Shown in pieces: positions 5,060 through 42,868 of a stretch of 42,868 nucleotides of DNA (the first letter of the stretch is position 1; each line of letters opens with the position of its first letter). The DNA is from a virus, in IMG/VR virus record IMGVR_UViG_3300017779_000027, positions 1 to 42,868 of that record; one strand, given 5' to 3'. A program made the translations under genes and the position numbers. Under the pieces are notes generated by a model. That model had not been told where the DNA came from. It worked only from the letters and a program-made list of their open reading frames with translations, and did not search any database.

Positions 5060-5452
5060 ATGAGTATACTAACAAAAATATTTTCTGGCGGAGCAGCTGA
5101 TCTTGTAAAAGGAGTAGGCGGTGTAATAGATAACCTACACACATCTGCAGAAGAAAAGCTAGAAGCAGAAAGAAAAATAAAAGAATTAATTGCTAACTAT
5201 GAAATAGAGATGGAAAAGAACATCACTAGCAGGTGGGAGGCAGATTTAAAATCAGACTCGTGGTTAAGTAAAAATGTTAGACCATTAGTATTAATATTCT
5301 TAATAGTATGCACCATGCTATTAATATTTATAGACGCAGGTGCATTAAAATTTGAAGTAAAATCATCATGGGTTGATTTACTTCAATTAGTATTAATAAC
5401 CGTGATCGGTGCTTATTTTGGCGGCCGATCATTAGAAAAAGTAAAAAAATAA
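5060..5452 (+). CDS. Putative holin of the 3TM / gene-transfer-agent type
   Basis: This 130-residue protein resembles the GTA_holin_3TM family. An amphipathic N-terminus (residues 1-30) is followed by a charged helix with TSRWEADLKSDSWLSKNVRP, then a strong membrane segment LVLIFLIVCTMLLIFIDAG (about 75-94) and a second one LLQLVLITVIGAYFGGRS (about 107-124). It ends with the basic tail EKVKK. Family members are thought to make inner-membrane holes at the end of infection so that a cell-wall enzyme can pass. The RPLVL entry into the membrane and the GAYFGGRSLEK end are family-like. A second holin-like gene lies at 42616 with a similar FEKVKKK tail. Confidence 0.82.
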   Translation: MSILTKIFSGGAADLVKGVGGVIDNLHTSAEEKLEAERKIKELIANYEIEMEKNITSRWEADLKSDSWLSKNVRPLVLIFLIVCTMLLIFIDAGALKFEVKSSWVDLLQLVLITVIGAYFGGRSLEKVKK

Positions 5453-33672: not shown

Positions 33673-36600
33673 ATGAACAAAGAAGCTTTAAACGACGCAT
33701 ATCAGCATTTTGTAAATACCGGTTACCAAGGTACTATAAATGATTTTTCTATATTAATAAATTCAAATAAAAACGCTTTTAACGACTCTTATGGTTACTT
33801 TAAAGAAACCGGCTACAAGGGAAGCGTGGATGATTTTTCTACGTTATTAGGCGTGGGAAAAGCACAAGGCTCGACGGAAGATCCGACGATGGGCCAAGAA
33901 AGTATGGGGTCACAATCGGACAGTGGTTCTTCGGAATCAGTAAGTTGGTTTGATCAAACGTGGTTTGGTAGAGGTGTAAAGGCTGCCAGCACAACTGGTG
34001 AGGCCACCAACTTAATGTCTGAAAATTTTTCTAATATAAGCAAAGAAAGTATACAAGATTTTATAAAAGCTAAAGAACAAGAAGCTGGAAGCTATGTTGA
34101 GTCTGAGCGTATGAAAAAGTTTCAAGAGCAATACGTTAAAGAAGGTAAAACTTGGAGTGCTTTTTTTAGAGGTGTAAGTAAACAACCTGGTTTACTACCA
34201 GAATTATTTGTACAATCATTAGGTACTCAAGTTGGCACATTAATAGATTCTCCTGGCGCTTCATTGGCTGCCGCAGGCGCTGGTGCTGCAGGTGGTGCTG
34301 CTGTTGGCGCTGTACCAGGCGCTGTAGCTGGATTTATGGGTGGTTTAGCAACTTCAATGGAAGCTGCTTTAACGTTTGGTGAGTTAATAGAAACAAGATT
34401 AAAAGAAAAAAACCAAGAATTTACAGATGATAATATCAAAGCTTTATTAGAATCTGAAGGTAGAGAAATAAGAAACAAAGCTTTAGGTAGAGGTTTAGCT
34501 ATTGGTACTATAGAAGGTTTTAGTGGTGGTTTAGCAGGTAAAGCAGCTGTTGCTACTAAAGGAGCGGTACAAGCCACTAGAGCTGGTAAAGTAGGTAAGA
34601 CAGGTATTTTAGCCGCTGGCGCTTCTGGCGTTGGTGTTGAAGCTGTAGGTGGAGCAACAGGTGAAATAGCAGGTAGAGTTGTAGCTGGTCAAGAAATGGA
34701 TGCTGCTGAAATTGGTTTTGAAGCTATAACAGGTACGGTAACTGCACCTGTAAATGTATTAGCTGCGCTAAAATCTGCAAAGCAACCTACGTATAGGTTA
34801 AACGGTGAAAAAGTTACTTATAACCAAATGAAAGATTTTGTTGACACCGCTGACGATATGGATGTTGCTAAAGCTGATATTAAAATGCGTGACGATTACA
34901 CTGGTCTTGGTAAAAAAGCTAAGGCAAAACAAGAGGCTGCTGAAAAAATGATAGAACTTTCAGGTGATGTTGCGACACAGCAAGAGGTTAAAAAAGCAAA
35001 AGATCTAAATAAAATAGCTGCTACTATAGAGTTAGCAAAACAAGGTAAGCAAATAAGTAATGTTAAAGATGCTTTTGCTGTTGAAAACAATGAAGAAGCT
35101 ACAAAAGCTTATAAAGAATTACAAGATCAATATGGTAAAGATGTTATAAAAGATCAAGATGTTACTGATGCTGATGGATTTTTTGTTCCTACGCCTGATG
35201 GTAACGTAATAATAATAAACAAAGAAGTAGCTGCCGAAACAGGTCAAATAAACGTTGGTGGTCATGAGCTTCTACATGGAATAGTACAAGAGCATTACAA
35301 CTCCTTAACGCCTGAAGCAAGAGCTAAGTTTATAAATGATTTTAAAAACACTATATCTAAAGAGTCTTTAGAGTATATACAGAATATAATTGATGCTAGA
35401 AATAAAGATAGAGTTGATGAAAAAACAGGTAAAACTATTGAGGGTGAAAACATACAGGCTGATAGCGATGAATATCTAACTATATATTCAGATGGTATTG
35501 TTAAAGAACAAATAACTTATAACGAAGGTGTATTTACTAAGTTTAAAAACTTTTTGCAAGATATATTTAGAAAATTTGGTTATAATAAAGAGTTTGGAAG
35601 TGGCGCGGCTACTTATAATTTCATGCGTGATTATAACAAAAACATCATGGAGTTTAATAAAATCAGTGAAAGAGCCAAAGCAGTCGCTGGTACTAAAGCT
35701 GTTGCTGGTGATGCTAGTTTGTCTGTATCAGGTTTTGATCAAAATGAAGTTGCTGAAGATCTTGGGTTAAAAGAAACAACAGCCGGTATTGTGGCTAGAA
35801 ACAAAGAAATTGAAAATACAATATTAGAAGAGGGTATAAAAGACGAAGAAGGAAATATAAAAGCTTCACCTGTACAACAAAGAAAACTAGCAGAAAACAA
35901 TTTGCCAAGAGCTTTTGCACTAGCAAAACAAGCCGCTGGAAAAGCTAAAGATCTTACGCTAGACGACGCTTTAAAAATAGATGATGTAATGGAGTTTTAC
36001 AGTGAGTATAGTTTAAAGCTTACTGAATTAGCTAGAACGTACAAAGCGCAAATGCCCGATGGTACTAAAGTGCCTTTTGGCGCTTACATGAACAGTCTTT
36101 TGCCTTTAAAGTATTCTGGCATATTAGAAAAGTTAAAAAGCAAAATACAAACAACTAGCATGTCAGATGAGACTGTTGGTAAAAAAGTAAGAAGCATTGA
36201 AGATACTACTGATGAGACTGCTAAAACTAAAGGTACTAAAACAAGGTTAAAACAAAGAGCATCTAGAAAATTAACAAGCTTAGCTGATTTAGATATTGAA
36301 AGTTCTCCGTTGATAAAAGAAGTAACAAAAATTAAACTTAAAAAATTAATTGAGTCAAATCCTAAAAATTTAGTTGAACAAATACAAGAAATTTTAATAT
36401 CTGATTTAGTTGAGATTATAAGGCAAGAAATGGGTGTTATAGGGCAAAAAGATGGTAAGTTAAACATACCTGACGATTATAACGCTTATCTGTCAGACAC
36501 GTATCAATTAACTATTTCCAGCATGGAAATATCAAAAATAAGGGCTAATTACAAAAATTTATTTAGGAAAGAAAAAATGGGTTTTGCGGATTACAAAACT

Positions 36601-39600
36601 AAAAAATCTGACAAACCTAGTCTTAAAAAAGATAGTAATTACGTAAAAGACATTAACAGAAATGTTACAACAAAAGCTGAGTTTATAAAATACCATACTG
36701 AAGGTAAAAAAAATAAATTAATAGCTAACCAAAAAAATTTAGCTATAATGCGGGCTGAAGCGGAGGTTGTTAGAGCTGCAGATAACTATATAATAGATAA
36801 TTCGCAAAACTTAAATGAAGTTTTTGCCGCGGAACTTAGAAAATATATAGATTCTAAAACTATAGAAAAACAAAAATTAGAAGACAAAAGTTTTGATAGT
36901 GTTAAATTTAGCAAAACAATAGCTAACCCAGTTAATGTAAAGCATTTTAATGAGTTAATTAACGAGGGTATAAATGGTGAAATTGGTAGTGATATTTGGA
37001 TTTCTTTAACAAAAATAGCAAATCCAGTTATTGTAGAAAAGGTAATAAAAACAATAGATTTACATAACGCTGACTACGTAAAAGAAACTAGTGGTTTTAA
37101 AGATAGAGTTAGAAATTTAATATTTCCCAAAAAGATTAAAGAAAAATATTTCGCTAGACCAACGAACAAAAACCATACAGATTCCATTGCTGAATTATTA
37201 GACTTTACAGAAAGTCTAGCAGAAGTAATGGATCCAGCTTTAGTTTCAACAGGTTTATTTGAAGATATGTTTGGTTTTACTTATAGATATGGAGATAAAA
37301 ATCGTATAGGTAAGGATACATACGGCAGGGTTATGGATTCTGCTTCAAAAAGAAAATCTGACAAAAACTTTGGGGATAAATTCGGTTTTGATCCTGAGGC
37401 CGTTAAAAAATACATGTATAATTCTACGTTTGGGATAATGAACAGAATTAATACTATTGCTAATAAGTCTTTCAACACAGCAAAAGAAAAGCTACAAGCA
37501 ATGTTAGATAAAGAAGGAGCTAACATAGAGCAAGCAAATAAGCAAAACTACAAAGTATTAGAATATATAATAACAAAAGCAATACAAGTTGTTAATAAAA
37601 ACCCAGACAAACTAGTTGGCGCTTTAAGATGGTTAGAATCAGCGACGTCTACTATAAAAGGATTAAGAGGCTTAACTAGATTGACACATCTAGATGTTAT
37701 GGCTGAGTCACAAGCACCATCTACAAAGCATCCCGATTACGAAGCAACGTACAAAGTAGCCTTGGAAAGCGTTAGAAAGAAAAATAAAGCTAAAAAATTA
37801 GATTTAAGTAAATCTCAAATTGAAGAAACGGCAAAAGAATCTGCTTTGGCGCAGCTAAAACCTAAGGGCGAACATTTAAAACCAAGCGCTAATCTAATGG
37901 CATCGTTTGCTGAGCTTATAATAAAATATTCTAAACTTGATATGGGTAATCCAAAAACTTTAACCGAGTTTAAAAAAGATTTTAACAAGTTAATTGACGG
38001 TTATGACCAAGCATTGGGTAACAAAAGTACTTATGCTATTGTTGACAAAACAATGGGTTCTCAAGCTGAAGGCGATGTTAGATTGTTAACGGGATTACCT
38101 AAAAATAGAGCAAAACGTTTTTACCACGTAAGTGGTAACCAATCAGTTGGTTATATATCTAGAACAATTACTCAAAGTAAAGAGTTTGCAAAATTATCAA
38201 ACAAAGCAGACAAAGCGGCTAAACTAAATAACGCTGTTAAAAGGTCTAGATCTGTGAATAAAGAGTCTAAAGGTATTACTGTTCTAGATTTTGACGATAC
38301 CCTAGCTACAACTAAATCTTTAGTTAAGTATACTAGACCAGATGGAACTACCGGCACTTTAAATGCCGAGCAATACGCTAGTACATATGAAGATTTATTA
38401 GACCAAGGTTTTACATTTGACTTTTCAGATTTTAATAAAGTTGTAAAAGGTAAGGTTGCACCATTATTTCAAAAAGCATTAAAGTTACAAGGTAAGTTTG
38501 GTCCTGAAAATATGTTTGTATTAACAGCTAGACCACCTCAAGCTGCTAAGGCTATATTTGATTTCTTAAAAGCTAATGGTTTAAATATACCAATGAAAAA
38601 TATTACTGGCTTGGCTAATTCTACAGCAGAGGCTAAAGCGTTGTGGATCGCTGATAAAGTTGGTGAAGGTTATAATGACTTCTATTTTGCTGATGACGCT
38701 TTGCAAAACGTGCAGGCTGTTAAAAATATGCTAGAGCAATTTGATGTTAAGTCTAAAGTTCAACAAGCTAAAGTTAAATTTAGCAAATCAATGAACGATG
38801 ACTTTAATAGTATACTAGAAGAAATAACTGGTATTAATGCTGCAAAACGTTTTTCAGATATTAAAGCTAGAAAACGTGGCGCTAGCAAAGGTAAGTTTAG
38901 ATTTTTTATACCACCATCTCACGAGGACTTTGTGGGTTTGCTTTATAATTTTATGGGTAAGGGTAAAAAAGGTGATCAACATAGAGACTTTTTTGAACAA
39001 GCTTTAGTTAGGCCATTGAACAGAGCTTATAGAGAGGTAGACACGGCTAAACAAGCTATAGCTAATGACTACAAACAACTAAACAAACAGTTTACAGATG
39101 TAAAAAACAAACTAACAAAGAAAACTCCAGATGGTGACTTTACATTTGAAGACGCTGTTAGAGTGTACTTGTGGAATAAACATGGTTATGATATACCTGG
39201 CTTATCACCAACTGACCAAGCTAGTCTAACTGAGTTAGTAACAAACGATTCTCAACTAAGATCTTATGCTGAAACTTTAAATATAATATCCAAACAAGAT
39301 ACCTATGTAGACCCAGGTAAAGGCTGGGAAGGTGGTAATATAAAAACAGATTTAATAGATGCTACTGGTAGAGTTGGTAGAGCGCAATATTTTGCTGAGT
39401 TTAACGAAAATGCTGATATATTATTTTCGCCTGAAAACTTAAATAAAATTGAGGCTGCTTACGGTAAAGATTTTAGAAGCGCACTGGAAGATATGCTACA
39501 TAGAATTAGCACTGGTGTGAATAGGCCAAAAGGTCAAAGCGGGACCGTAAATGCATTTATGAACTATTTAAACGGTTCCGTTGGTACTGTTATGTTCTTT

Positions 39601-40866
39601 AACGTTAGATCAGCAATACTACAGCAAATGTCTATTGTTAACTATATAAACTTTGCTGATAATAATATGTTTGCCGCTGCCAAAGCTTTTGCTAACCAAC
39701 CTCAATACTGGAAAGACTTTGCCTTCATATTTAACTCAGACATGTTAAAGCAAAGGCGTGGTGGTATTGGAACAGATATTAACGGTAATGATCTTGCTCA
39801 AGCTGTAGCTGGCTCAAAAGATCCAACTAAAGTTGTTATAAGTAAACTTTTGCAATTAGGATTTTTACCTACACAAATAGGTGATAATATTGCGATTGCC
39901 ACAGGTGGTGCTACTTTTTATAGAAACAGAATAAACAAATATATAAAAGACGGTTTAAGTAAAAAAGAAGCTGAAACAAAAGCGTTTACTGACTTTCAAG
40001 ATTTAACACAGTCAACTCAGCAGTCATCAAGACCTGATATGACATCTAAACAGCAAGCCAGTTGGGTTGGTAAATTAGTGTTAAACTTTCAAAACATTAC
40101 ATCACAATACAATAGAATAATTAAAAAAGCAGCATTAGACATTGGTAAAGGTAGAATATCACCACCATATACAAGTAAAGCACAAAGTAATTTAGGTAAT
40201 TTATCTAAGATACTATATTATGGTGGTATACAAAATGTTATATTTTATAGTTTACAAACTGCTTTGTTTGCGGTTATGTTTGGAGACGATGAGGACGAAG
40301 AGCAAATACTAAAGAAAAAAGAAAGAGTTATAAATGGTAGTATTGATTCTATATTAAGGGGAGCTGGTGTATATGGTGCGATTGTTTCTACTTTAAAAAA
40401 TACTCTTATCAAGTTTAAAGAACAAAGAGAAAAAGGTTATAATAAAGATGAAAGCGCTGTACCATTAGAACTTTTAAACTTTTCACCAGTAGTTGGTATT
40501 AAAATTAGACAAATAGTTAACGCTGAAAAAACACTTAATTATAATGAAAATATAATAAGCGAAATGGAAACATTTGAAGCTGATAACCCGCAGTGGTCAG
40601 CCGTTACTAATTATACCCAAGCTTTAACTAATTTTCCGGCAAACAGATTGTATCAAAAAAGTATAAACATGCGTAATGCGCTTGATAAAGATTATACTAA
40701 TTTCCAAAGAGTAATGTTTTTTAGTGGTTATACAACGTGGAGTTTAGGTCTAGGTGATAATGAGAGAATTATTGAAGCTAAAGAAAAAGTTAAAATAAAC
40801 AAAGCAAACACTAGAAAAAGCAAAAAGAAAAAACGTGCTGACATAAAAATTAGAAAAAGAAGATAA
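33673..40866 (+). CDS. Giant polyvalent ejection protein (2397 aa) with HExxH and HAD
   Basis: It opens with two repeats (residues 5-29 and 35-59) of NDAYQHFVNTGYQGTINDFS type. A Gly/Ala-rich membrane-active stretch follows at about 192-233 (AAAGAGAAGGAAVGAVPGA). A zincin motif GGHELLHGIV has His531, Glu532 and His535. Long helical regions lead to an HAD phosphohydrolase-like domain: LDFDDTLA with Asp1539 and Asp1541, FVLTARPP with Thr1618, and FADDALQNV with Asp1674-Asp1675. The C-terminal part (FFIPPSHEDFVGLLYNFMGK; a hydrophobic segment at about 2184-2204) resembles large phage internal proteins of marine podoviruses. It ends very basic (KKKRADIKIRKRR). Polyvalent proteins are injected with DNA and carry several effector domains; that class fits best, though activity is unproven. 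Confidence 0.8.
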   Translation: MNKEALNDAYQHFVNTGYQGTINDFSILINSNKNAFNDSYGYFKETGYKGSVDDFSTLLGVGKAQGSTEDPTMGQESMGSQSDSGSSESVSWFDQTWFGRGVKAASTTGEATNLMSENFSNISKESIQDFIKAKEQEAGSYVESERMKKFQEQYVKEGKTWSAFFRGVSKQPGLLPELFVQSLGTQVGTLIDSPGASLAAAGAGAAGGAAVGAVPGAVAGFMGGLATSMEAALTFGELIETRLKEKNQEFTDDNIKALLESEGREIRNKALGRGLAIGTIEGFSGGLAGKAAVATKGAVQATRAGKVGKTGILAAGASGVGVEAVGGATGEIAGRVVAGQEMDAAEIGFEAITGTVTAPVNVLAALKSAKQPTYRLNGEKVTYNQMKDFVDTADDMDVAKADIKMRDDYTGLGKKAKAKQEAAEKMIELSGDVATQQEVKKAKDLNKIAATIELAKQGKQISNVKDAFAVENNEEATKAYKELQDQYGKDVIKDQDVTDADGFFVPTPDGNVIIINKEVAAETGQINVGGHELLHGIVQEHYNSLTPEARAKFINDFKNTISKESLEYIQNIIDARNKDRVDEKTGKTIEGENIQADSDEYLTIYSDGIVKEQITYNEGVFTKFKNFLQDIFRKFGYNKEFGSGAATYNFMRDYNKNIMEFNKISERAKAVAGTKAVAGDASLSVSGFDQNEVAEDLGLKETTAGIVARNKEIENTILEEGIKDEEGNIKASPVQQRKLAENNLPRAFALAKQAAGKAKDLTLDDALKIDDVMEFYSEYSLKLTELARTYKAQMPDGTKVPFGAYMNSLLPLKYSGILEKLKSKIQTTSMSDETVGKKVRSIEDTTDETAKTKGTKTRLKQRASRKLTSLADLDIESSPLIKEVTKIKLKKLIESNPKNLVEQIQEILISDLVEIIRQEMGVIGQKDGKLNIPDDYNAYLSDTYQLTISSMEISKIRANYKNLFRKEKMGFADYKTKKSDKPSLKKDSNYVKDINRNVTTKAEFIKYHTEGKKNKLIANQKNLAIMRAEAEVVRAADNYIIDNSQNLNEVFAAELRKYIDSKTIEKQKLEDKSFDSVKFSKTIANPVNVKHFNELINEGINGEIGSDIWISLTKIANPVIVEKVIKTIDLHNADYVKETSGFKDRVRNLIFPKKIKEKYFARPTNKNHTDSIAELLDFTESLAEVMDPALVSTGLFEDMFGFTYRYGDKNRIGKDTYGRVMDSASKRKSDKNFGDKFGFDPEAVKKYMYNSTFGIMNRINTIANKSFNTAKEKLQAMLDKEGANIEQANKQNYKVLEYIITKAIQVVNKNPDKLVGALRWLESATSTIKGLRGLTRLTHLDVMAESQAPSTKHPDYEATYKVALESVRKKNKAKKLDLSKSQIEETAKESALAQLKPKGEHLKPSANLMASFAELIIKYSKLDMGNPKTLTEFKKDFNKLIDGYDQALGNKSTYAIVDKTMGSQAEGDVRLLTGLPKNRAKRFYHVSGNQSVGYISRTITQSKEFAKLSNKADKAAKLNNAVKRSRSVNKESKGITVLDFDDTLATTKSLVKYTRPDGTTGTLNAEQYASTYEDLLDQGFTFDFSDFNKVVKGKVAPLFQKALKLQGKFGPENMFVLTARPPQAAKAIFDFLKANGLNIPMKNITGLANSTAEAKALWIADKVGEGYNDFYFADDALQNVQAVKNMLEQFDVKSKVQQAKVKFSKSMNDDFNSILEEITGINAAKRFSDIKARKRGASKGKFRFFIPPSHEDFVGLLYNFMGKGKKGDQHRDFFEQALVRPLNRAYREVDTAKQAIANDYKQLNKQFTDVKNKLTKKTPDGDFTFEDAVRVYLWNKHGYDIPGLSPTDQASLTELVTNDSQLRSYAETLNIISKQDTYVDPGKGWEGGNIKTDLIDATGRVGRAQYFAEFNENADILFSPENLNKIEAAYGKDFRSALEDMLHRISTGVNRPKGQSGTVNAFMNYLNGSVGTVMFFNVRSAILQQMSIVNYINFADNNMFAAAKAFANQPQYWKDFAFIFNSDMLKQRRGGIGTDINGNDLAQAVAGSKDPTKVVISKLLQLGFLPTQIGDNIAIATGGATFYRNRINKYIKDGLSKKEAETKAFTDFQDLTQSTQQSSRPDMTSKQQASWVGKLVLNFQNITSQYNRIIKKAALDIGKGRISPPYTSKAQSNLGNLSKILYYGGIQNVIFYSLQTALFAVMFGDDEDEEQILKKKERVINGSIDSILRGAGVYGAIVSTLKNTLIKFKEQREKGYNKDESAVPLELLNFSPVVGIKIRQIVNAEKTLNYNENIISEMETFEADNPQWSAVTNYTQALTNFPANRLYQKSINMRNALDKDYTNFQRVMFFSGYTTWSLGLGDNERIIEAKEKVKINKANTRKSKKKKRADIKIRKRR

Positions 40867-40910: not shown

Positions 40911-42008
40911 ATGGTGAAAAGACTAATAATACTATTAACAATATTTATAATGGCATGTTCAGCGCCAAAAAAATGTTGTTCACAAACATTTGGAGTAGAT
41001 GATGTTAAGAAGATGCTTAAATTTTCTACGTTCTATGCCGCTGTAAACGGTGGAACGTCACTTTCTGATGTTGATGTATTCTCTGTAGATAATGGTTTGT
41101 CTACGCGGACTATTTCAACTCCTTATGATTATAATTTTACCATAGGTTTACGTAAGATAGCGAGGTTTGGCTATGAAAATAAAGCGCAAACATTTTATGA
41201 TGGAACGGAATCTAATTATAGTGATGCGGCCACTGTAGGTAAAGTTAAAGGAGTTGAATACTTATTTGAAGTTGATTACAAACGACAAGAAGGCGTAGAC
41301 TACATGGATCAACACCATTTTATTAGGTTTAGTTCTGATGATGGTTGTCAAGATGAAGTATGTATAAACTTTTTTGCTTTAAAGTTAGAGTATCTTGAAG
41401 ATGGTTTTGCTGATATTAAATATTTTGAAGCGTCAGAGAGATATAGACATCGTAAAGGCAAAGATTTATCATGGAATATTGGGTTAACACATAGACTTGC
41501 AGAGCCATATGGCTACAATGCTCTTGATGAGTGGATGTTGGTGAATAATAATATACATTATACTTATTTAGCTTTGCAAGAAGGGTATGAGGTAGATGTG
41601 TATAGCAACGAATACTATAGCCCTGATGGCGAGATAGTTGCTACTAGCGCTGAAGTTTGGGAGGCAGTTGTGATACCAACAGTACTATCAGATTACACTC
41701 AAAAGAAAAGAAACGAATTAAAGAAAACAATACAGCACTCACTTGTTGTGGGTTTTGATTATTATAAATATTCTAAAAAAACTTGGTTACACGCATGGGG
41801 AAGTTTAATGCCATACCACTACGATGATGGTAGTGAGTTTAGTTATCATAACTATGTTGATGGTCAATGGTATGATTACTCGGGTGGTTTGATTTACGGT
41901 ATAAAAGTTAACAAACAACTAGGATATTTTGTAGAAGGTAAATACAATAAGTACTGGAACAGAGAATGGTACGATTTTAAATTAGGTATGAATTACGTTA
42001 TATTTTAA
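40911..42008 (+). CDS. Exported outer-membrane-like protein, probable lipoprotein
   Basis: The N-terminus has a signal sequence (MVKRLIILLTIFIMACSAPK) with a lipobox-like IMAC, so lipidation at Cys16 is plausible. A CCSQTF segment offers an alternative cleavage. The rest, 340 residues, alternates strands with aromatic girdle residues (YAAVNGG, YDYNFTIGLRKIARFGYENK, LVVGFDYYKYSKKTWLHAWG, LGYFVEGKYNKYWNREW) and ends in YVIF, as in beta-barrel outer-membrane proteins. A phage gene for such a protein could remodel the host surface, block superinfection, or take part in lysis. Alternatively it is a virion protein. I cannot choose between them from sequence alone. It begins an exported-protein cassette, 44 bases after the giant gene. 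Confidence 0.7.
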   Translation: MVKRLIILLTIFIMACSAPKKCCSQTFGVDDVKKMLKFSTFYAAVNGGTSLSDVDVFSVDNGLSTRTISTPYDYNFTIGLRKIARFGYENKAQTFYDGTESNYSDAATVGKVKGVEYLFEVDYKRQEGVDYMDQHHFIRFSSDDGCQDEVCINFFALKLEYLEDGFADIKYFEASERYRHRKGKDLSWNIGLTHRLAEPYGYNALDEWMLVNNNIHYTYLALQEGYEVDVYSNEYYSPDGEIVATSAEVWEAVVIPTVLSDYTQKKRNELKKTIQHSLVVGFDYYKYSKKTWLHAWGSLMPYHYDDGSEFSYHNYVDGQWYDYSGGLIYGIKVNKQLGYFVEGKYNKYWNREWYDFKLGMNYVIF

Positions 42009-42009
42009 A

Positions 42010-42291
42010 ATGGCAAAAGAATTAAATGAAGATACTGGTTTTAATGTAAGTATTAAAACTTTACTAGCTATAGGTTTTGCTATGGCTACTATTATTGGGA
42101 TGTGGTTTGCTTTACAAGCGGATATTGCTGAAGCAAAAGAATTACCCGCACCATTACCTCCAGATGTAACACGTATGGAGTTTGACATGAAAGATCAAAT
42201 GATACGTAATACTATTATGACTACACAAAAAGATGTAGAAGAAATAAAAAAGTCCTTAGAAAAAATAGAGGATAAATTATATAATAGATAA
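42010..42291 (+). CDS. Single-pass membrane protein with coiled coil (93 aa)
   Basis: One membrane segment (residues about 15-35, KTLLAIGFAMATIIGMWFAL) follows a short polar N-terminus. A Pro-rich linker (ELPAPLPPDVTRMEF) and a C-terminal coiled coil (IMTTQKDVEEIKKSLEKIED) come next. Inferred topology is N-in, C-out. The build resembles phage inner-membrane spanin (i-spanin/Rz) or holin accessory proteins, but no partner is proven. The gene starts one base after the upstream stop and its TAATG end overlaps the next gene. Confidence 0.7.
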   Translation: MAKELNEDTGFNVSIKTLLAIGFAMATIIGMWFALQADIAEAKELPAPLPPDVTRMEFDMKDQMIRNTIMTTQKDVEEIKKSLEKIEDKLYNR

Positions 42292-42614
42292 TGAAAAAAA
42301 TATTAATACTAATGTTTTTTTGTAATAGTGCTTTTGCACAAATACAAGTGTCACAATTTAATGCTGAATGGAATGCTGCCAATGCTGTTAATTGGGTACA
42401 AGATCTTTCAGATTGCAAAACTATATCATACGTAGATATAAGCAAACAAGCTAAGCTAGCTACAGAACATAAAATAGCAGTAATACCTACTATTATAATA
42501 TTTAAAGATGGAGAAGAAGTTGCTAGGTTTCAAGCTGATCTTAGCTTTAAAATGGTAGCAACTAAAAAAGAAGTACAAGAAGAAATAGATAATCAATTAA
42601 TGAGCGATTTTTAA
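42291..42614 (+). CDS. Secreted thioredoxin-fold protein lacking the CxxC site
   Basis: The protein has a Sec signal peptide (MKKILILMFFCNSAFA, likely cut before Gln17), then the thioredoxin strand-turn FNAEWNAANAVNW. In active thioredoxins the WCGPC site sits here; in this protein Asn28 and Asn31 replace both cysteines. VDISKQAKLATEHKIAVIP keeps the cis-Pro66, and TIIIFKDGEEVARFQADLS completes the fold. It cannot do thiol-disulfide exchange in the usual way, so a binding or scaffold role in the periplasm is more likely (inference). It starts by TAATG overlap with the TM protein, within the exported cassette. Confidence 0.78.
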   Translation: MKKILILMFFCNSAFAQIQVSQFNAEWNAANAVNWVQDLSDCKTISYVDISKQAKLATEHKIAVIPTIIIFKDGEEVARFQADLSFKMVATKKEVQEEIDNQLMSDF

Positions 42615-42615
42615 T

Positions 42616-42834
42616 ATGTGGAGTTTATTTAAAGAAAAAAACGAAATTAACGAGAAGAATGTAGTTGGATTTGCATCATTTGTAGTAATGTGCTTATTTG
42701 CTGTTGCTGATTTATTAACAAGTATACTAGCAGATAAAGATTTAATTATAAATGAAGTTGTTTACAATTCATTTGTATGGGTTACGTTAGGGTGTTTTGG
42801 TATTAGTTCGTTTGAAAAAGTAAAAAAGAAATAA
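42616..42834 (+). CDS. Holin-like small membrane protein (72 aa)
   Basis: Two hydrophobic segments (VVGFASFVVMCLFAVADLLT and NSFVWVTLGCFGISSF) flank a short polar loop (ADKDLIINEVV). The N-terminus is charged (MWSLFKEKNEINEK) and the C-terminus is FEKVKKK, similar to the SLEKVKK tail of the holin at 5060. Size and topology suit a holin or an antiholin. It follows the thioredoxin-like gene after one base. No endolysin follows within the window. The next gene starts at 42836. Confidence 0.68.
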   Translation: MWSLFKEKNEINEKNVVGFASFVVMCLFAVADLLTSILADKDLIINEVVYNSFVWVTLGCFGISSFEKVKKK

Positions 42835-42835
42835 T

Positions 42836-42868
42836 ATGCCTGGAAGCGAAAGACAAAATAATATGTTC
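42836..42868 (+). CDS. Start of a further gene (partial)
   Basis: An ATG one base after the previous stop opens a frame reading MPGSERQNNMF to the window end. Only 11 residues are visible, so no function can be given. The tight spacing makes it likely to be a real, co-transcribed gene. Confidence 0.5.
   Translation, partial: MPGSERQNNMF

Follow-up and report, generated by a model that had tools for sequence, protein, structure and literature searches.

Gene content of the locus

The record IMGVR_UViG_3300017779_000027 is a linear viral fragment of 42,868 bases, and this whole stretch is referred to here as the window. GroEL, terminase, portal, capsid and further virion genes all lie on one strand of it; the phage-encoded GroEL is located at 1115-2680 (phrog_5725, 4.5e-137). 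The nearest relative of the terminase belongs to a metagenomic podovirus (64%), followed by phages of Flavobacterium, Cellulophaga, Tenacibaculum and Maribacter. Since the cultured terminase relatives infect Flavobacteriaceae, the host is probably a member of Bacteroidota, a call based on these relatives, on the export signals and on one MAG contig that is possibly misbinned. The right end of the window (40911-42834) carries four genes, designated OM, CC, TRX and HOL, all on the plus strand. These and the other features needed below are as follows.

5060-5452, plus strand: separate holin with three transmembrane segments (phrog_3427 holin, 3.9e-29; Pfam GTA_holin_3TM at 22.2 bits, below the cutoff of 24.8)
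33673-40866, plus strand: giant protein of 2397 aa, a probable virion component, immediately preceding OM in most loci of the window clade
40911-42008, plus strand: OM, 365 aa, signal peptide and predicted barrel of about 12 strands (AF2, Foldseek, family alignment, pN/pS)
42010-42291, plus strand: CC, 93 aa, one N-terminal transmembrane segment, Pro-rich linker and predicted periplasmic coiled coil (from sequence; conserved)
42291-42614, plus strand: TRX, 107 aa, Sec signal and thioredoxin fold (Pfam, PDB profile search, AF2 and Foldseek)
42616-42834, plus strand: HOL, 72 aa, two predicted transmembrane segments, Lys-rich at both ends, class II holin-like (from sequence and endolysin neighbours)
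42836-42868, plus strand: first codons of the following ORF (MPGSERQNNMF...), for which relatives have a small basic protein; the record stops here

The initial annotation had described four adjoining genes with overlaps or one-base gaps, and this arrangement was confirmed at the coordinates above, the intergenic spacings being 1, -1 and 1 nt. All four genes are under purifying selection. Measured against relatives, pN/pS was 0.10-0.15 for OM, 0.02-0.19 for CC, 0.24-0.44 for TRX and 0.09-0.16 for HOL, and because these values are low the four are taken as real genes. They are presumably late genes. The 2397-aa protein upstream contains a GHELLHG motif (HExxH-type zinc peptidase) and a FDDTLATT stretch resembling HAD-type phosphatases. 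The comparisons that follow draw on metagenomic contigs, which are fragments, with ORFs called by a simple script and clusters formed from BLAST and HMM thresholds; related loci among the counts are not independent.

Predicted products of OM, TRX and CC

The barrel-like strands that the initial annotation had noted in OM are borne out by an AF2 model with roughly 12 strands and a moderate pLDDT of 70. When the model was compared with the PDB by Foldseek, the top matches were all outer-membrane barrels, with low TM-scores. Membership of the outer-membrane barrel class is therefore credible, with no narrower family assignable. The C-terminus resembles a beta-signal (..LGMNYVIF). In the family alignment, identity is 67-93% within the clade and as low as 29% outside it, and the protein is strongly conserved along its full length in many phages. 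A lipobox, also attributed to OM at first, is not a feature of the family. About half of the N-termini are lipobox-like (...ACSAPKKCCSQ) and half end in ...VAQ, and 50 of the 105 OM proteins lack a lipobox-type start, on which ground a conserved lipoprotein was rejected. Q25 lies at the predicted signal-peptidase-I site and is invariant in a 52-row alignment.

The assignment of TRX as an exported thioredoxin-like protein with a Sec signal held up in each comparison made. TRX scored 27.3 bits against Pfam Thioredoxin (PF00085), for which the cutoff is 23.5, the TRX profile matched PDB thioredoxins down to 1.3e-7, and the AF2 model aligned to PDB thioredoxins with query-normalised TM-scores of 0.55-0.67. 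The site of the CxxC motif is occupied by N28-x-x-N31 in 141 of 141 sequences, and P66 (the cis-Pro) and F107 are likewise invariant. The invariant surface of TRX includes RFQADLSF and the terminal Phe. The alignment at this site has no gap: where an ordinary thioredoxin reads FWAEWCGPC, TRX reads FNAEWNAAN and the divergent L286 member FWAKFNEQN. Since both Cys are replaced by Asn, an active CxxC oxidoreductase was rejected, and the role of TRX is likely one of binding. Divergent TRX proteins in loci that combine HOL, an endolysin and a lipoprotein (L343, L354 and L386) also have NxxN (FNAGFNKSN, INAEFNKSN). Q17 occupies the cleavage site in 103 of 103 clade members. In the Bacteroidetes Q-rule, as outlined in two reports, cleavage by signal peptidase I exposes a Gln (PMC5837995, PMC10653852); Q17 of TRX and Q25 of OM, at their predicted sites, fit this rule.

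The transmembrane segment of CC, at about residues 17-36, and the two of HOL were read from the sequence and not assigned by a dedicated predictor. The charges flanking the CC segment point to an N-in/C-out topology, and the helix that follows the Pro-rich linker has a strongly conserved coiled-coil pattern. The predicted periplasmic part amounts to 57 aa, which is short for a spanin. Against PHROG, CC gave weak matches only; two of 43 members reached an Rz-like spanin, at a best value of 0.011, which is not significant. In four loci (L260, L264, L276 and L277, e.g. L277:9538-9882) an additional CC-like gene for a transmembrane coiled coil lies between CC and TRX, which suggests that a heteromeric coiled coil may form in these lineages. 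In 42 distinct loci a gap of 1 nt separates OM from CC. TRX and CC overlap by 1 nt in the window; among about 95 distinct loci, 56 have such an overlap, of either 1 or 4 nt.

Searches of a phage collection, which may leave out records very near the window, were made by tblastn. Three divergent OM queries and CC gave no match, and TRX gave partial thioredoxin matches only (E 0.03-0.07) and none of full length. This agrees with the remark in the initial annotation that the exact gene set is undescribed. None of the annotated PHROG families was convincing for OM, CC or TRX. The best viral structure match to OM was A0A516LKJ4 (21% identity, 6.6e-19), and a search run without a positive control found no OM homologue in the cultured phages immuto and elemo or in the complete metagenomic record MW202828.

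Conservation of the module across viruses

Scans of IMG/VR returned 450 OM and 145 TRX candidate matches, and 376 with the TRX profile. Across 158 loci the order OM, CC, TRX was kept in about 140, and CC and TRX occurred together throughout. OM was elsewhere in about 13 of these loci, and HOL, a facultative member in the window clade, was detected in about 17. A divergent TRX query located the module beyond the window clade. In L253, L254 and L256 the gene order is HOL, c6, OM, CC, TRX, where c6 denotes a secretion cargo gene described below. Among 18 further records, six have a T4-type portal, five have a strong match to the window terminase (G008, G009, G010, G016 and G019) and the others have neither. 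Joint function is the best explanation for a module that stays together across unrelated genomes, which goes beyond local synteny. The initial annotation had named a lack of synteny elsewhere as one finding that would speak against it; synteny proved strong, extending over hundreds of contigs and to unrelated types of virus. Its proposal of a joint job across both membranes draws support from this co-occurrence in unrelated viruses, although membership of the set varies, CC and TRX being its tightest pair.

HOL is linked to endolysins

No holin family matched HOL by HMM. A search with HOL only, which is unbiased towards OM and TRX, retrieved loci in which HOL stands beside four unrelated kinds of endolysin (M15, DUF5675-like, amidase and phrog_3000/33083). 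The endolysin is directly adjacent (gene distance 1) in 27 of 52 distinct HOL loci. Where a locus shows an endolysin, HOL lies within one to three genes of it in 30 of 34 cases (88%), as against 31% of the other genes in the same loci. Strong closeness was seen for HOL only: TRX is mildly closer to endolysins, and a preference of OM for an endolysin neighbour was not supported (29% within one to three genes versus 28% of other genes in the same loci). A HOL homologue (51%) in the cultured Flavobacterium phage immuto lies directly ahead of the annotated endolysin and holin, and in L253 and L286 an endolysin directly precedes HOL. HOL, CC and TRX follow one another with 4-nt overlaps in L343, L348, L349 and L354, and in L343 and L354 they are followed by an endolysin, without OM. 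The window record itself has no endolysin; in its clade the module comes after the virion protein, and an endolysin is either separated from it by several genes or not contained in the record. From these neighbours and its layout, HOL would be a class II-like holin or a holin partner in the inner membrane. Of the three roles offered by the initial annotation, namely lysis, superinfection exclusion and envelope remodelling, lysis gains most support, through the four endolysin families beside HOL and the immuto locus.

OM was not found together with a spanin-like lipoprotein

Many HOL loci without OM encode a lipoprotein of 137-161 aa with a lipobox, a beta-rich middle and a C-terminal transmembrane segment (L354:5039-5464, L367:10697-11116, L392:6214-6699 and relatives). 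This is the layout of the T1 unimolecular spanin as defined in PMC6139136. The family had no significant PHROG spanin match; we regard its members as candidate unimolecular spanins of Bacteroidota phages and call them spanin-like only. Among 61 distinct HOL loci the lipoprotein is present in 21, OM in 13 and both in none (Fisher p 0.002, an optimistic value since loci are related, and an exclusion that concerns OM alone). No lipoprotein homologue was found in 22 whole OM contigs of up to 181 kb, a search in which five positive controls were detected. A homology-independent screen of the flanks for a lipobox plus a C-terminal transmembrane segment retrieved 26 of 31 lipoprotein loci, none of 157 window-clade loci and, beyond this clade, two of 101 OM loci; in the window, too, no ORF has this unimolecular spanin layout.

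At least five distinct loci have CC and TRX as well as the spanin-like lipoprotein, which means that the pair is no plain substitute for it. CC and TRX may help to control the holin, or they may work with outer-membrane partners of either kind. According to a 2025 survey, Bacteroidetes phages use only unimolecular spanins (PMC12596118), and OM phages that lack one would therefore need another route. An earlier survey had found 91 of 677 phages without a spanin (PMC6139136), and the OM phages could be one group among such spanin-less phages.

A type IX secretion cargo beside the module

The gene c6 encodes a protein of 600-1,300 aa with a Sec signal, in part of the family a MAM domain, and a C-terminal type IX secretion system (T9SS) type A sorting domain. 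It lies downstream of the module in 67 of the 68 distinct window-clade loci with room for it, and beside OM in several other loci; in several loci its stop overlaps the OM start by 4 nt. The gene adjoins the OM module in hundreds of contigs (e.g. L018:8118-10985, L148:6544-9906 and L162:7983-9944). The sorting domain (TIGR04183) was detected in 12 of 20 scanned c6 proteins (E up to 0.01), some of which exceed the 23-bit cutoff, and the remaining ones end in a shorter tail without a detected sorting domain. An odd signal end, ...C(S/A)xPKxCC(S/A/G)Q, is common to about half of the OM proteins and some c6 proteins (L062, L113 and L116), which gives the impression that a signal piece had been swapped between the genes. 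The window record ends before the c6 position, and the window genome presumably carries the gene. L162, a contig of a Sphingobacteriales MAG, has c6, OM and TRX, and its terminase shares 83% identity with the window terminase; the assembly also has PorP-family and T9SS cargo genes. Many OM-CC-TRX loci lack c6, and eight OM contigs searched as a whole have no T9SS sorting domain; only some of the lineages therefore have c6 as a partner. A literature search for phage-encoded T9SS cargo found one earlier report, on Cryophage, where it was called a unique occurrence (PMC7468147).

A proposed role in lysis and the alternatives

Taken in general terms, the four genes are probably linked to lysis. 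This reading is favoured because HOL adjoins endolysins and because OM never occurs with the spanin-like lipoprotein. More specifically, we tentatively propose, at somewhat less than an even chance, that OM, CC and TRX form a spanin-like trans-envelope complex for the outer-membrane step of lysis. HOL would act in the inner membrane as a class II-like holin or holin partner. CC would be anchored in the same membrane and extend its coiled coil into the periplasm. Beside it, TRX would serve as an exported, redox-dead thioredoxin fold with a binding function, and OM would form a barrel in the outer membrane. Holin and endolysin would act first, after which the OM-CC-TRX complex would disrupt the outer membrane as spanins do elsewhere. 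What the data show is the genes, the predicted folds, the lost CxxC, the joint conservation and the two statistical associations; the topology of CC, the physical complex, the timing and the disruption itself are all inferred. Several points stand against the proposal, chief among them the coexistence of CC and TRX with the lipoprotein in some loci. In addition, OM is no nearer to endolysins than other genes of its loci are, the module of the window clade comes after a virion protein and at a distance from any endolysin, CC has a short periplasmic part, and a further holin is encoded in the window genome. A bolder version, in which a barrel, a redox-dead TRX and CC constitute together with holin and endolysin a spanin-independent disruption machine that is exchanged among unrelated Bacteroidota phages and replaces unimolecular spanins, we consider doubtful.

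The same gene set can be read in other ways. OM held by CC and TRX, often together with c6, might alter the surface of the infected cell and block adsorption, so that further phages, or released progeny that meet debris, fail to adsorb. The T5 lipoprotein Llp and Lom-type barrels are models for such superinfection exclusion or receptor masking. A barrel made by the phage for the outer membrane would suit this purpose, as would the Sec-exported c6, which has a T9SS sorting domain, in many cases a MAM domain as well, and neighbours OM in many lineages. However, OM is conserved over its whole length and not diversified as an arms race would predict, the genes sit among late structural and lysis genes, and the linkage of HOL to endolysins is left unexplained, which makes exclusion unlikely. 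Alternatively, OM, CC and TRX might assist the delivery of c6 to the host surface, or its retention there, by way of the type IX secretion of the host, where barrels of the PorP/SprF family partner T9SS cargo. The presence of c6 in 67 of 68 distinct window-clade loci and its 4-nt overlap with OM in several loci are in keeping with such a helper, but OM was rejected as a PorP/SprF protein (TIGR03519; hhalign probability 0.3% and 1.5% against six host PorP proteins), and the OM-CC-TRX loci without c6 and the eight whole OM contigs without a sorting domain further make this quite unlikely.

A role within lysis but different from outer-membrane disruption has also to be weighed, in which CC and TRX are periplasmic regulators of HOL and perhaps sense superinfection through OM. 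An analogue is offered by T4, in which RI is the antiholin of holin T. RI is described as periplasmic with a cleavable signal peptide (PMC8385771). HOL, CC and TRX are translationally coupled in a subset of loci, TRX is a binding fold without catalytic cysteines, and the persistence of CC and TRX beside the spanin-like lipoprotein argues for a role separate from it. In the window clade, however, an adjacent HOL is often absent from CC and TRX, and the family scans gave no sequence similarity to RI or T; regulation of lysis timing by these genes seems rather improbable. Least of all do we expect that the products are carried in the virion and form a conduit across the envelope for DNA ejection at entry. 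In the window clade OM does come directly after the giant probable virion protein, but the Q-rule export signals of OM and TRX are unsuited to packaging in the cytoplasm, and other virus types have the module with lysis genes and not with virion genes.

Breakage of the outer membrane by phages of Bacteroidota, which are abundant in the sea and the gut, has been little studied, and unimolecular spanins are held responsible in the cases known so far. With a barrel and an NxxN thioredoxin fold among its products, the module conserved across unrelated viruses supplies named genes with which this step can be tested. In addition, c6 brings in a large group of phages that apparently use host type IX secretion to export a surface protein.

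Comparison with known systems

As in the two-component spanins of lambda (Rz/Rz1) and T4 (PseT.3/PseT.2), neighbouring genes close to a holin and endolysin encode an inner-membrane coiled coil and a protein of the outer membrane. CC, as read from the sequence, might have the layout of an i-spanin, with one N-terminal transmembrane segment, a putative N-in/C-out orientation and a periplasmic domain; no spanin HMM matched it significantly. The differences are that the outer partner is a predicted beta-barrel and not a small lipoprotein, that a thioredoxin-fold protein always accompanies CC, and that the periplasmic part of CC is short and has no significant sequence match. OM was rejected as an o-spanin, given the predicted barrel and the lack of a conserved lipobox (about half of the proteins have none). 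Unimolecular spanins such as T1 gp11 occupy the same place in the lysis neighbourhood, and their layout is that of the lipoprotein family, which never occurs with OM, whereas none of the four window proteins combines a lipobox with a C-terminal transmembrane segment. HOL resembles class II holins of the lambdoid S21 type in its length of about 72 aa, its two predicted transmembrane segments, its charged ends and its adjacency to endolysins, and its sequence layout would suit an N-in/C-in topology; in contrast to these, it is matched by no holin HMM family, and a second holin, of canonical type, is encoded by the window genome and by some relatives. TRX shares with the thioredoxin family (PF00085) the fold, the cis-Pro and a score above the Pfam cutoff, and differs from it in having NxxN for CxxC in all members, a shortened alpha-2/beta-3 region and a predicted periplasmic location. 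The likeness of OM to PorP/SprF barrels is that of an outer-membrane barrel near a T9SS cargo, and the two have no profile similarity. Finally, the Cryophage cargos and c6 share the T9SS type A sorting domain (PMC7468147); the former comprise enzymes and PA14 proteins encoded in variable islands, whereas hundreds of contigs have c6 as a conserved companion of the OM module.
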